From contig NZ_CP064786.1 of the NCBI RefSeq assembly GCF_017094485.1, positions 2,608,788 to 2,672,787 of the forward strand: a DNA stretch of 64,000 nucleotides. The letters run 5' to 3'. The notes under the pieces were generated by a model, which was not told the origin of the DNA, made no database searches, and was given only the letters and a program-made list of their open reading frames with translations. Below are positions 24,927-55,893 of this stretch, piece after piece; positions within the stretch are counted from its first letter, which is position 1, and each line of letters begins with the position of its first letter. Position numbers and translations under genes: made by a program. Source of the DNA: Natranaeroarchaeum sulfidigenes. GTDB taxonomy: Archaea > Halobacteriota > Halobacteria > Halobacteriales > Natronoarchaeaceae.

Positions 24927-25107
24927 TTCGGTTCTCCGTTTTCCGACGGCGAATACGAACGATATTTTATTTCGGACTCACCCCGAACAGTGACGACGCT
25001 GTCGGAGCGGCCAAACAAGTAGGACCGACGCTATATTGCTCTCTCGGTAGCGGTCGCTCACCACCGTGACCGTGCCTATGAAGTTCGTTCTGTCCGTAGT
25101 ATACACG

Positions 25108-26334
25108 ATGCACAGTACGGAAGTACTCGTCGTCGGTGGAGGGGGAACAGGGATCGGAATCGCACGGGACCTGGCGATGCGCGGCGTTGACGTAACGCTC
25201 GTCGACCGTGGGGGACTCGGCATCGGGACGACCGGGCGATCACACGGGCTGTTACACAGCGGCGCGCGCTATGCGGAGGCTGACGCGGCTGGCGCACGCG
25301 AGTGTATCGTCGAAAACGAGATCCTGCGCGACATTGCTGGTGCGTGTATCCGCGACACTGGTGGCTACTTCATCAGACTCGAAGACGATGATCCCGAGTA
25401 CTTCGAGGAGAAGTACGAGGCGTGTCTGGACCACGATATCCCGGCAGAGCGGCTCTCACCGGAGCAGGCCCGCGAGGACGTGCCGGACCTGTCCGAGGAT
25501 GTCACCGAAGTGATGGCCGTCCCAGACGGCGTGATCTACCCGTCACGACTCGTCGCGGCGACGGCCGCCGATGCCCGCGATCACGGTGCGACGATCCTTC
25601 CAGACGCCCCCGTGACTGACCTGTTCAAAGACGACGGTCGAGTGATCGGTGCGGCGGTCGATCACGACGTCGGGAAGATCCACGCCGACCACGTGGTCAA
25701 CGCGACCGGAGCGTGGGCCGGACAGCTGGGCGACATGGCTGGCGTCGACGTCGAGATGAAACCGACACGCGGCGTCATGATCTGCCAGGAGTACGAGGGA
25801 CTCGACAGGGTTCTCAACCGGGCCCGGGATCCCGACGACGGCGACATAGTCATCCCGCACGCCGACGAGGTGGTTCTTGGGACAACGAGTGTCGAGGTCG
25901 ACGATCCGGACGAGTACGAGACCGAAGAGTGGGAGGTCGAACGCACCATCGAGGAGTGTGCAGCGATGTTCCCACCTGCGGCCAACGCACACGAAACGCG
26001 AACCTACTGGGGCGTCCGCCCGCTGTACGCACCCGAGGAAGCCGAAACCGGCGGTGCACGTGGGATCTCCCGTGGGTTCTTCGTTCTCGATCACGACGAG
26101 CGCGACGAAGTCGACGGCTTTACCAGCGTCGTCGGCGGAAAGCTCACGACCCACCGCATGATGGCCGAGGCTGCGGCCGACGCGATTGCCGACCGGCTCG
26201 ACGTCGAGGAGCCGTCTAGAACTGCCGAGGAGCCGCTGTACGCCAGCGATGATCCCGACACACTCGATGCGCTCGTCGACGAGTTCGACATCGACGGCCC
26301 CGCCGACGCCGACGTGATCGGCAGTGGCCAGTAG
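25108..26334 (+). CDS. FAD-dependent oxidoreductase, GlpA-like
   Basis: The protein has 408 residues from ATG 25108 (MHSTEVLVVGGGGTGIGIARDL), with the FAD-binding GxGxxG at the N-terminus, RGGLGIGTTGRSHGLLHSG as the next flavin contact and TYWGVRPLYAPEE plus FTSVVGGKLTTHR near the end, as in glycerol-3-phosphate dehydrogenase subunit A (GlpA/GlpD). It lacks the C-terminal 2Fe-2S-binding part of full GlpA and no glpB or glpC follows. GTG 25066 and ATG 25078 are alternative starts. The neighbouring etfBA genes, although convergent, suggest ETF could take its electrons. Substrate: glycerol phosphate or a similar hydroxy acid. Confidence 0.82.
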   Translation: MHSTEVLVVGGGGTGIGIARDLAMRGVDVTLVDRGGLGIGTTGRSHGLLHSGARYAEADAAGARECIVENEILRDIAGACIRDTGGYFIRLEDDDPEYFEEKYEACLDHDIPAERLSPEQAREDVPDLSEDVTEVMAVPDGVIYPSRLVAATAADARDHGATILPDAPVTDLFKDDGRVIGAAVDHDVGKIHADHVVNATGAWAGQLGDMAGVDVEMKPTRGVMICQEYEGLDRVLNRARDPDDGDIVIPHADEVVLGTTSVEVDDPDEYETEEWEVERTIEECAAMFPPAANAHETRTYWGVRPLYAPEEAETGGARGISRGFFVLDHDERDEVDGFTSVVGGKLTTHRMMAEAAADAIADRLDVEEPSRTAEEPLYASDDPDTLDALVDEFDIDGPADADVIGSGQ

Positions 26335-26403
26335 AACAGGAGCGGAGGACTGAGAACTCCAGTAGCTGTTGATACCGGTCGCTGTCGCCGGGTAATCCCT
26401 ATA

Positions 26404-26505
26404 CTACAATTCTCGAAGCCCTAACTACAGCTTTCGAGGTATATCGCTACAGTTACCGAACTGGAGTACTACAGCTCTCGAATCGTATTACTACAAATAT
26501 TGAAG
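26404..26505. promoter_or_regulatory. Phased array of five 15-bp imperfect palindromes
   Basis: Five 15-mers fitting CTACA-N5-YGARN start at 26404, 26425, 26447, 26469 and 26491: CTACAATTCTCGAAG, CTACAGCTTTCGAGG, CTACAGTTACCGAAC, CTACAGCTCTCGAAT and CTACAAATATTGAAG. Starts are 21, 22, 22 and 22 bp apart, two helical turns, so all lie on one DNA face. The units are imperfect palindromes (CTWCR...YGWAG), as for a dimeric DNA-binding protein. The array lies between two convergent genes, 70 bases after the GlpA-like stop and 27 bases after the etfA stop, with no gene of its own. Confidence 0.75.
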
Positions 26506-26531
26506 TGAAGCGATCGGCGCGGGCAGTACCG

Positions 26532-27494
26532 CTATTCGTCGAACTCCTCGATCAACGCTGGGACGACATCGAAGAGATCACCGACGATCCCGTAATCCGC
26601 GAGATCGAAGATCGGCGCGTTCGGGTCGGTGTTGATCGCAATGATCGTCTCCGCACCCTTCATTCCGGCGACGTGCTGGACGGCCCCGGAGATGCCAATG
26701 GCGAGGTAAACGTCGGGCGTGACAACTTTCCCCGACTGGCCGACCTGCCGGTTCTTCGGCAGCCAGCCGTTGTCGATGATCGGTCGAGACGCCGAGACAG
26801 TTGCACCGAGCGTCTCAGCGAGTTCCTCGATCAGTTCGAGGTTCTCCTCCTCCTCGATCCCGCGACCGACCGAAACCAGCAAGTCGGCCTCGCTGATATC
26901 GATGTCGCCCGCACCGACCTCCTCGAAGCCTTTCACGGTCGAGCGGATCGTACTCTCGTCGATCTCGACATCGACCGATTCGATCACGGCGTCACCCGCC
27001 GCTTCGGTCGTCGGCCATTCGGCGTCCCGGATCGTCACCGCAACGCCACCGCTCGCGTCGACCTCGTTGGTCGTCGCAACCTTCGAGCCGTACATTTCAC
27101 GGGTTGCTACGAGGCGATCGCCGTCGACGTCGAGTTCAACCGCATCGGGGACGTAGGGCAGGTCGAGCCGTGTCGCCACGGCGGGGGCGTAGTCGAGGCC
27201 GTTGACCGTGTTGGGCAACAGAAGGAACTGCGGCGCGACCTCGTCGTACAGCGCCTCGACGGCCTGCGTGTAGATGCCGTGGTTGAACTCCTCGCCCTCG
27301 GCGACGGTGAGCACTCGATCGACACCCTCGCGATTTAGCTCGTCGGCGAACGCGTCGACGTCCCCGCCGATCAGAGCGACATGCAGGCCGCCGCCGGTTC
27401 CGTCGGCGAGTTCGCGGCCCGCCGTGATCAGTTCGAGACTCACGTCCCGGAGGTCGCCGCGGCGGTGCTCCGCGACGGCGAGTACGTCGCTCAT
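26532..27494 (-). CDS. etfA: Electron transfer flavoprotein alpha subunit
   Basis: EtfA (FixB) pairs with EtfB to carry electrons from acyl-CoA or other dehydrogenases to the quinone pool. The protein is 320 residues. The C-terminal FAD-binding domain shows VGRGIEEEENLELIEELAETLGA, then SRPIIDNGWLP, RQVGQSGKVV, AIGISGAVQHVAGM and INTDPNAPIFDLADYGIVGD, all diagnostic. The start overlaps the etfB stop by four bases (ATGA-type), so the pair is translationally coupled. The phased palindrome array lies just past its stop. Confidence 0.96.
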   Translation of the reverse strand: MSDVLAVAEHRRGDLRDVSLELITAGRELADGTGGGLHVALIGGDVDAFADELNREGVDRVLTVAEGEEFNHGIYTQAVEALYDEVAPQFLLLPNTVNGLDYAPAVATRLDLPYVPDAVELDVDGDRLVATREMYGSKVATTNEVDASGGVAVTIRDAEWPTTEAAGDAVIESVDVEIDESTIRSTVKGFEEVGAGDIDISEADLLVSVGRGIEEEENLELIEELAETLGATVSASRPIIDNGWLPKNRQVGQSGKVVTPDVYLAIGISGAVQHVAGMKGAETIIAINTDPNAPIFDLADYGIVGDLFDVVPALIEEFDE

Positions 27495-28702: not shown

Positions 28703-29965
28703 ATGAACTACAACTACAGGTATCGCCTCACGCCGACCAAAAGCCAGCGTGAGACACTGGACTACCACCGCGATACCTGTAGGCAACTCTACAACCACGC
28801 TCTGTACCGCTTCAACCAAATTCCCGAAAACGAGGGCACCGTCAAACAGCGTGTTCGCAAAATCCGTGACGAACTTCCCGACCTCAAAGACTGGTGGGAC
28901 GCACTCACCGACATTTATTCGAAAGTGCTCCAGCCCACCGTCATGCGGATTGCCAAGAATATCAAACGACTTGGCAAACTCAAAGAGAAGGGCTACAAGG
29001 TTGGTGAACTCCGGTGGAAGTCACCACGCGAGTTTCGCAGTTTCACCTACAACCAGTCTGGCTTCGAACTCGACAATAAGAGTGGTCAGACCGTGTTGTC
29101 ACTCTCGAAACTCGCAGATATTCCCATCGAACTTCACCGACCACTGCCTGACGACGCAACGGTCAAGGAAGTCACTCTCAAAAAGGAGAAAACCGGCGAG
29201 TGGTTCGCTATCTTCGGCATCGAGATGGATACGGAACCGCCAGCCAAGCCCCCGCTAGGAGATATTGACACTGACGAGATGGTCGGAATCGACGTGGGGA
29301 TTCTCACGTATGCCCACGATACAGACGGCACAGCGGTCGAATCACTCGACCTCTCAGAGGAACGCGAAAGGCTCGAACGAGAGCAACGAAACCTCTCGCG
29401 CAAAGAGCATGGATCGAACAACTGGGAGGAACAACGTCGGCGTGTCGCTGAGTGTCACCTACAAATCAAGTTCAAGCGGCGTGATTTCCTGCATAAACTC
29501 TCGAACTACTACGCTCGGGAGTACGAGGTGGTGGCTGTCGAAGACCTCAACGTGAAAGGGATGCTGGAATCGCCGCGAAACAGCCGAAACACGGCGTCGG
29601 CGGCATGGAGCACCTTCACCGATATGCTCGAAACGAAGTGTGAGCGGGAAGGTACGCACTTCGTGGAAGTTGACCCCGAAGGGACCACCAAAGAGTGCGC
29701 TCAGTGTGGTGTCGAAACCGACAAACCGCTCTGGGTGCGGGAACACTCCTGTCCTGCCTGTGGGTTCAAAGCAGACAGAGACGCAAACGCAGCGTGGAAT
29801 GTTCTTTCTCGCGGACTCACCAAACTAGGAGTGGGTCACTCCGAATCAACGCCTGTGGAGACTGCACTCCCTGCGGGAACTGCCGTTGTTCCTGCAAAGC
29901 GCGTCGTGGAAGCAGGAAGCCCCTGCCTCAAGGAGCCGCCAACGGCGGCGAGTAGGCAGGGGTAG
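28703..29965 (+). CDS. tnpB: TnpB RNA-guided endonuclease of IS200/IS605 type
   Basis: This is a 420-residue TnpB. The N-terminal wedge/REC part starts MNYNYRYRLTPTKSQRETLDYH. The RuvC catalytic residues are D197 (GIDVG), E280 (VVAVEDLN) and D360 (KADRDANAAWN), and the zinc ribbon has C332, C335, C350 and C353. All are intact, so the nuclease is probably active. TnpB proteins cut DNA beside a short target motif, guided by the omega RNA made from the element's right end. The last 40 codons overlap that RNA. Codon use is less extreme in GC than the neighbours, consistent with mobility. No tnpA is present. Confidence 0.94.
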   Translation: MNYNYRYRLTPTKSQRETLDYHRDTCRQLYNHALYRFNQIPENEGTVKQRVRKIRDELPDLKDWWDALTDIYSKVLQPTVMRIAKNIKRLGKLKEKGYKVGELRWKSPREFRSFTYNQSGFELDNKSGQTVLSLSKLADIPIELHRPLPDDATVKEVTLKKEKTGEWFAIFGIEMDTEPPAKPPLGDIDTDEMVGIDVGILTYAHDTDGTAVESLDLSEERERLEREQRNLSRKEHGSNNWEEQRRRVAECHLQIKFKRRDFLHKLSNYYAREYEVVAVEDLNVKGMLESPRNSRNTASAAWSTFTDMLETKCEREGTHFVEVDPEGTTKECAQCGVETDKPLWVREHSCPACGFKADRDANAAWNVLSRGLTKLGVGHSESTPVETALPAGTAVVPAKRVVEAGSPCLKEPPTAASRQG

Positions 29966-53028: not shown

Positions 53029-53095
53029 ACAGGGCGCACGTCGGACGCTCCCTTAGATGTGCTGGTCGACCCTTGCTGTCGACGAAAGCCTTTGA

Positions 53096-53153
53096 CTTCG
53101 GATATTGAAGTGTTTTACTACAGTAATCGAAGTTACTACTTCGAAAGCTGTAG
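53096..53153. promoter_or_regulatory. Phased array of three 15-bp imperfect palindromes
   Basis: CTTCGGATATTGAAG (53096), CTACAGTAATCGAAG (53118) and CTTCGAAAGCTGTAG (53139, reverse of CTACAGCTTTCGAAG) have starts 22 and 21 bp apart, the same unit and phase as the five-copy array at 26404. It lies between divergent genes, about 60 bases before the TATA box of the DUF2892 gene and 68 bases before the other start, where an activator or repressor would bind. Confidence 0.7.
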
Positions 53154-53213
53154 CATCGCCGAAGCGGTCGATCTCTGTTCAAAATAGTATGTTGTAACCA
53201 GCCCAATACGAAC

Positions 53214-53706: not shown

Positions 53707-55893
53707 ATGGGTAGACGAAAGAAGATCGTCGAGGAGTGCGAGCGACTGATGGACGAGCCGGAGAACATCCGGAACATCGCCATCGCCGCACACGTCGACC
53801 ACGGCAAGACGACACTGACGGACAACCTGCTGGCCGGTGCCGGGATGATCTCTCAGGACACCGCAGGCGAGCAGCTCGCGATGGACACGGAAGAGGACGA
53901 ACAGGAACGTGGGATCACCATCGACGCGGCGAACGTGTCGATGACCCACGAGTACGAGGACACCAACCACCTCATCAACCTGATCGACACGCCGGGCCAC
54001 GTCGACTTCGGTGGCGACGTGACCCGAGCGATGCGCGCCGTCGACGGTGCGCTCGTGGTTGTCGACGCCGTCGAAGGGGCGATGCCCCAGACCGAGACGG
54101 TGCTCCGACAGGCCCTGCGTGAGGGCGTCAAACCGACGCTCTTTATCAACAAGGTCGACCGCCTGATCTCCGAACTGCAGGAGGGTCCCGAGGAGATGCA
54201 ACAGCGTCTCATGGCGGTCATCCGCGACGTCAACGAGCTGATCGAGGGGATGACCGAGGAGATGGACGACATCGACGACTGGACGGTCTCCGTCGAAGAG
54301 GGGACCGTCGGCTTCGGGTCTGCCCTGTACAAGTGGGGCGTCTCGATGCCGTCGATGCAGCGCACCGGCATGGACTTCGGCGACATCATCGACCTCGAAC
54401 GTGCCGACAAGCGCCAGGAGCTTCACGAGCGCACGCCGCTGTCGGACGTCGTGCTCGACATGGTCTGTGAGCACTTCCCGAACCCGATCGATGCCCAGCC
54501 CCGCCGTATTCCACGCGTCTGGCGTGGCGACGCCGACTCGGAACTCGCAGAATCGATGCAGCTCGTCGACGAGGACGGCGAAGTCGTGCTGATGGTCACT
54601 GACATCGGCGTCGACCCGCACGCGGGAGAAATCGCCGCCGGTCGTGTCTTCTCGGGCACACTCGAGAAAGGACAGGATCTCTACGTCTCCGGGACGGCCG
54701 GGACCAACCGCGTCCAGAGCGTCGGGATCTACATGGGTGGCGAGCGCGAGGAAGTGGACCGCGTTCCCGCAGGGAACATCGCGGCAGTCACCGGTCTGGG
54801 TGACGCCATTGCGGGATCGACGGTTTCGTCCGTGGAGATGACACCGTTCGAGTCGATCGAGCACATCTCCGAGCCCGTCATCACGAAGGCCGTCGAGGCC
54901 AAGAACATGGACGACCTGCCGAAACTCATCGAGACGCTCCGACAGGTCTCCAAGGAGGACCCGACGATCCAGATCGAGATCAACGAGGACACCGGCGAGC
55001 ACCTGATCTCCGGTCAGGGTGAGCTTCACCTCGAAGTGATCGGCCAGCGGATCGAGCGCAATCAGGGCATCCCGATCAACACCGGCGAACCGATCGTCGT
55101 CTTCCGCGAGATGCCACAGAGCGAGAGCCGCGAGGTCGAGGGGATCTCCCCGAACCGCCACAACCGTTTCTACATCTCGGTCCACCCGCTCGGCAAGGAA
55201 ATTGTCGACGTGATCAAGAAGGGCGAGGCCTCGATGGACATGCCCGAGCAGGAACGCCGTGAAGTCCTGCAGGAGGCCGGAATGGACAAGGACACCAGCC
55301 AGAACGTCGAGCACATCCACGGGACGAACGTCCTGATCGACGACACGAAGGGTATCCAGCACCTGAACGAGACGATGGAGCTGTTCATCGAGGGGCTCGA
55401 GGACGCGCTGAACGACGGCCCGCTGGCCGCAGAGCCAGTCCAGGGATCGCTCATCCGTCTCCACGACGCGCGGCTTCACGAGGACACCATCCACCGCGGT
55501 CCGGCACAGGTTATCCCCGCAGTACGTAACGCAGCCCACAATGCCCTGATCGACGCCGACATCAAACTGCTCGAACCTATCCAGGACGTCCGAATCGACG
55601 TGCCGAACGACTACATGGGCTCGGCATCCGGCGAGATCCAGGGCCGCCGTGGCCGTGTCGACGACATGTACCAGGAAGGCGATCTGATGGTCGTCGAAGG
55701 GATCGCACCGGTCGAGGAAATGATCGGTTTCGCCAGCGACATCCGCTCGGCAACCGAGGGTCGTGCCTCCTGGAACACCGAGAACGCAGGGTTCCAGGTC
55801 ATGGCCGACAACCTCCAGCGCGACCAGATCATGGAGATCCGCGAGCGCAAGGGCATGAAGCTCGAACTGCCTCAGGCCGTCGACTACCTGTAA
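53707..55893 (+). CDS. fusA: Translation elongation factor aEF-2
   Basis: This 728-residue GTPase translocates the ribosome. G1 is AHVDHGKTT (residues 28-36), DTPGHVDF is G3 and NKVDR is G4. The C-terminal domain has [15 protein letters not shown], whose histidine is the diphthamide site. The start [26 protein letters not shown] is the archaeal form. It is not in the usual str operon arrangement with S12/S7 here; EF-1A and S10 lie 2 kb further on. A five-stem-loop array precedes it. Confidence 0.97.

Follow-up and report, generated by a model that had tools for sequence, protein, structure and literature searches.

HxlR-family transcription regulators and the sequence-specific chromatin proteins of archaea are the closest described systems to the DNA element considered here. 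Within the first group, YodB has the preferred palindrome TACT-7-AGTA and senses through cysteines (PMC8063818). Cbp1 of the Sulfolobales is a sequence-specific helix-turn-helix chromatin protein that binds numerous repeats, builds regular chromatin, and keeps cryptic promoters repressed, and TrmBL2 of the Thermococcales, which takes its name from the TrmB regulators, is a nucleoid protein enriched at short chromosomal regions (PMC11894787). The haloarchaeal element resembles the YodB operator in its outer ACT/AGT. However, its unit is four bases wider (ACT-11-AGT) and, unlike the YodB operator, is arranged in 22-bp arrays at about 40 loci. In a search of the literature we found no description of this motif or its arrays, of a link between them and HxlR, or of an operator for a haloarchaeal HxlR protein.

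The window, by which we mean the whole stretch of 64,000 nucleotides analyzed, comes from a 3.04-Mb haloarchaeal chromosome (genome G000; its sister species is G001). The initial annotation had reported five phased palindromes between the 3' ends of convergent genes, and the positions, the spacing, and the flanking genes were all confirmed. CTACA starts at 26404, 26425, 26447, 26469, and 26491, giving start-to-start spacings of 21, 22, 22, and 22 bp. The 15-bp unit first described, CTACA-N5-YGARN, was placed correctly, and weight-matrix refinement extends it to a 17-bp imperfect palindrome, ACTWCR-N5-YGWAGT, with an AT-rich center and linkers of 4 to 5 bp. The array thus spans 26403 to 26506 and consists of five forward-strand weight-matrix matches: ACTACAATTCTCGAAGC (26403..26419), ACTACAGCTTTCGAGGT (26424..26440, 21 bp from the first), GCTACAGTTACCGAACT (26446..26462, 22 bp further), ACTACAGCTCTCGAATC (26468..26484, 22 bp further), and ACTACAAATATTGAAGT (26490..26506, again 22 bp further). 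To the left, 68 bp away, ends a forward-strand gene for a FAD-dependent (DAO, GlpA-like) oxidoreductase (25078..26334; gene call, Pfam DAO at 200 bits), and to the right, 25 bp away, ends etfA on the reverse strand (26532..27494; gene call, Pfam ETF_alpha and ETF). A gene for an IS605-type OrfB (TnpB-like) protein of 420 amino acids (28703-29965) adjoins the etf genes.

The G+C content of the array is 40%, compared to 62% for the window. No unit pairs at 21 to 23 bp arose in third-order Markov surrogates of the window (1.92 Mb) or in AT-rich intergenic surrogates (1.44 Mb). A chance origin of the phased units can be ruled out on sequence grounds by these surrogates together with a reversed-pattern control. 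A CRISPR array was also ruled out, as the units are degenerate and the linkers too short.

The array belongs to a dispersed family. The genome-wide search suggested with the initial annotation shows that phased arrays recur at about 40 loci, with positions kept between species. The tandem-pair pattern matched 12 times in G000 and 19 times in G001, with no reversed-control match in either genome; clearly, then, the 15-mer neither occurs at random frequency nor lacks 21- to 22-bp phasing elsewhere. Weight-matrix analysis identified at least 40 multi-unit arrays in G000 (16 with two units, 20 with three, 2 with four, and 2 with five) and at least 44 in G001, counts that rest on pattern searches and the stretches around matches and may therefore miss arrays composed of weak units only. 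Unit spacings in the G000 stretches examined peak sharply, with 59 at 22 bp, 7 at 21 bp, and 23 at 44 bp. All 40 G000 arrays are intergenic and none lies inside a gene. They are randomly spread along the chromosome; regular spacing was tested for and not found. One other array lies in the window at 53095..53154, with three weight-matrix matches (at 53095, 53117, and 53138) in the divergent gap before an EF-2-like gene (53749-55893), and it is conserved in G001. Genes next to arrays, as identified from their sequences, are diverse, including those for MDH, HisS, SRP54, PEP carboxylase, GlyA, DnaG, EF-2, and acyl-CoA dehydrogenase, among others. We rejected a metabolic regulon because these neighbors are unrelated housekeeping genes with no common pathway.

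Among the approximately 100 array neighbors, HxlR genes stood out. One G000 array is located between an HxlR gene and a DUF6069-like gene (Pfam match below the cut-off), and in G094, which belongs to a different family, the Natrialbaceae, an HxlR gene other than this one has an array immediately upstream. The association was found among many neighbors and was therefore put to the test. The candidate binder in G000 is a 137-amino-acid HxlR-family winged-helix protein encoded 91 kb to the left of the window (G000:C1:2517661-2518071), with an HxlR domain (PF01638) scoring 47.7 bits against a cut-off of 20.8. Solved structures in the PDB with similar sequences are those of HxlR, YodB, and QsrR, and both Pfam and sequence similarity place the G000 protein in the same HxlR/DUF24 family. 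On inspection its sequence contains no cysteine. Therefore, it lies outside the YodB/QsrR thiol-switch subgroup, from which it is also set apart by an operator spacing of 11 rather than 7.

HxlR orthologs were located in 98 haloarchaeal genomes. In genomes that lack genome-wide arrays, the motif occurs upstream of the HxlR gene itself, often as a pair spaced by 22 bp; examples are ACTACGGGTTCCGTAGT-N5-ACTTGCGACTTCGAAGT in G010 and ACTACGAATTTCGTAGT in G070 and G095. It is enriched upstream of the orthologs relative to shuffled sequences (combined Fisher p = 6e-15) and in 18 HxlR upstream regions relative to 57 further upstream regions, drawn from these and related loci (p = 2e-9). A held-out set comprised 8 HxlR genes on named haloarchaeal plasmids, chosen without sight of their upstream DNA. 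Seven of these carry the motif (combined pair p = 4e-12): six have two copies separated by exactly 22 bp, at about -121/-99, together with another site near -23 that is weak in some cases, and in the remaining one a strong site at -23 stands alone. The motif was lacking upstream of the eighth gene, and there was no clear motif upstream of a second HxlR copy in G094. By its enrichment upstream of orthologs and its recurrence in the held-out set, the array motif qualifies as the putative operator of this subfamily, and we consider HxlR very probably the protein that binds the arrays.

Annotated plasmid HxlR genes mostly adjoin genes for DUF6069 and for an NADPH-dependent FMN reductase or other oxidoreductase, which suggests a small, redox-type local circuit. 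Distant HxlR paralogs of other haloarchaea (L276-L282), which had served as a first control, have a tandem variant of the motif upstream (ACTTTGAAA... and ACTGTCGAGTCCGAAGT), with copies 22 to 23 bp, mostly 23 bp, apart. This suggests that paired operators may be general for haloarchaeal HxlR proteins, with the architecture extending more widely in the family.

Pair counts were compared to those of the reversed pattern across 394 genomes of the order, a control that is not clean in array-bearing genomes. Counts are clearly above the control in G000, G001, G094 (9 versus 0), and G325 (28 versus 9; this may be the MAG Tc-Br11_E2g14), and a weaker excess is seen in two species of genus g72 (5 versus 0 and 4 versus 0). 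The MAG Tc-Br11_E2g14 itself (G059) contains at least 7 degenerate arrays; in one of its loci (L251, 330-432), motif copies 43 bp apart are embedded in a longer imperfect repeat. The HxlR proteins of G059 and G094 are sisters, each genome has a 22-bp pair over the core promoter of its own HxlR gene, and one G059 array shares its gap, flanked by genes for a solute-binding protein and an SDR, with a G094 array. On the HxlR tree the array-bearing species group into two supported pairs apart from each other, which requires two gains. As the motif is found upstream of HxlR orthologs in array-free genomes, it appears that the operator of a local autoregulator came to be distributed over the genome on two seemingly independent occasions, once in this genus and once in a Natrialbaceae lineage. 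Orthologs about 60% identical occur in genomes without arrays, and the protein alone therefore does not bring arrays with it. The rarity of the spread among genomes with the same HxlR is a puzzle. Where Parabacteroides, Chryseobacterium, and other organisms matched the pair pattern, the repeats proved to be unrelated. In Parabacteroides sp. PH5-46 (L082, L086, L088, L092, and L096) there is a different dispersed array, whose 22-bp palindromes resemble TGTTCTACAATTGTTGAACA and have complementary ends on either side; it has the look of a separate Bacteroidota family of repeats or operators.

Our proposal builds on what the sequences show directly, namely the arrays with their positions and conservation, and the motif that they have in common with HxlR upstream regions. 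We predict with high confidence that the arrays are functional binding sites. Each 17-bp unit would be bound by an HxlR dimer. A pitch of 22 bp would place successive dimers on the same helix face, so that two to five dimers could bind cooperatively. The initial annotation had envisaged cooperative binding of a dimeric protein along one face. This is still how the sites are naturally read, and they now indicate a specific protein family. In most haloarchaea with this subfamily, the motif is confined to the locus of the regulator itself and presumably serves there to repress HxlR and a divergent neighbor (DUF6069 or an oxidoreductase); the sites there overlap or approach core promoters and look autorepressive. 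In this genus and the separate Natrialbaceae lineage, sites appear to have become fixed in dozens of the gaps that separate transcription units. At these places the bound protein would serve chiefly as a boundary or chromatin block with sequence specificity, rather than as a repressor that occludes promoters, and would limit read-through and spurious transcription or shape the nucleoid.

This last step is suggested by the placement of the arrays relative to promoters. Upstream regions have an AT peak (TATA) at positions -26 to -30 relative to the start codon, where leaderless genes would be expected to have it, and arrays upstream of genes mostly end 55 to 85 bp before the start codon. The closest, at 34 bp, precedes the DUF6069-like gene divergent from hxlR, and all others are at least 42 bp away. 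Core promoters are thus free of array overlap, with the exception of HxlR's own divergent promoters. We favor a boundary or chromatin role because the arrays away from hxlR avoid promoters and include convergent gaps, and we hold it to be the main role only tentatively, at a little under an even chance. Of the options raised in the initial annotation, a nucleoid or boundary element is probably the best, and a terminator roadblock is possible. Nothing specific favors a partition site (parS/SegB type), which would be expected to cluster near the origin, and the arrays are randomly spread. The full explanation, in which the arrays are clusters of HxlR operators, are bound cooperatively, and serve a boundary or chromatin function at dispersed sites, has in our estimation a probability of roughly one in two. 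More speculative still is that a local HxlR autoregulator was turned twice independently into a sequence-specific chromatin or insulator protein marking the borders of transcription units, with phased arrays at fixed positions across species.

A serious rival, in our judgment possible yet rather unlikely, is an ordinary expanded regulon, in which HxlR acts from upstream arrays on adjacent promoters by activation or mild repression, and convergent arrays either govern antisense or unannotated transcripts or persist as tolerated by-products. HxlR proteins are, after all, known transcription regulators. The 40 G000 arrays are found in 9 convergent, 20 tandem, and 11 divergent gaps, so that 31 lie in gaps of the latter two types, and many on the promoter side are at the similar distance from start codons given above. 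However, the neighboring genes have no common function, the 9 convergent arrays are conserved, and outside the HxlR locus there is neither core-promoter overlap nor helical phasing of the arrays with the start codon, for which array-to-start distances were tested. The same gap counts bear on the convergent location that had first seemed odd. The location itself is correct, but it has no special status, as convergent gaps carry arrays about as often as others (9/40; no enrichment relative to array-free gaps of at least 100 bp, Fisher p = 0.45).

The arrays could alternatively act as terminators or polymerase roadblocks, stopping read-through at gene 3' ends when bound. At least one 3' end faces the array in 29 of the 40 gaps (the convergent and tandem ones), often within 60 bp. 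Nevertheless, the divergent gaps with arrays offer no 3' end, and we regard this explanation as improbable.

Comparison between species bears on the mode of spread. Arrays occur in the orthologous gap of G001 for 37 of the 40 in G000. In aligned array pairs from these genomes, identity is 80% in half-sites, 66% in unit centers, 68% in flanks, and 54% in linkers, and in several pairs the unit number differs by insertion of one or two 21- to 22-bp unit lengths. The etfA array has five units in G000 and four in G001 at the same place. In G003, from a related genus of the same family, the identical convergent gene pair lacks an array and is separated by about 100 bp; the G000 gap (26335-26531, 197 bp) is about 100 bp longer, and the etfA array may have come with this added DNA. 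The longer gap, and the many copies scattered in one genus, would suit a dispersed mobile or selfish repeat (MITE- or REP-like) carrying the HxlR motif. However, only the units are common to the arrays, with linkers and flanks that differ between copies and diverge between species, and positions are fixed at the 37 shared loci. We therefore rejected assignment to the MITE/REP class and consider such an origin very unlikely. Least probable of all is a role as titration (decoy) sites that buffer free HxlR levels. It would account for arrays at promoter-free places, but sites that count only in total should not be conserved locus by locus.

One feature is odd for a homodimer. The units are asymmetric, with one ACTAC half and one ACTTC half in 89 of 114 units from the G000 and G001 arrays, and neighboring units within an array tend to have the same orientation (33 versus 13). 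This asymmetry with shared orientation is a puzzle. Polarity of the asymmetric units toward the downstream gene was not significant (27 versus 18, p = 0.23).

In archaea, insulators and boundary elements are ill defined, and roughly one in four conserved arrays is located where promoter control is unexpected. The system offers a naturally occurring example, seemingly in two instances, of the site of a local regulator spreading over a chromosome. Related genomes with and without the spread are available for comparison, as are a precise motif and a candidate protein. The boundary or chromatin role proposed for HxlR may be likened, by analogy, to that of Cbp1. The two proteins are unrelated, and Cbp1 binds mainly CRISPR repeats, in contrast to the short intergenic, non-CRISPR arrays described here. 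The basis of TrmBL2 recruitment is poorly understood, whereas the HxlR-motif sites are defined by a strict motif and a 22-bp pitch.
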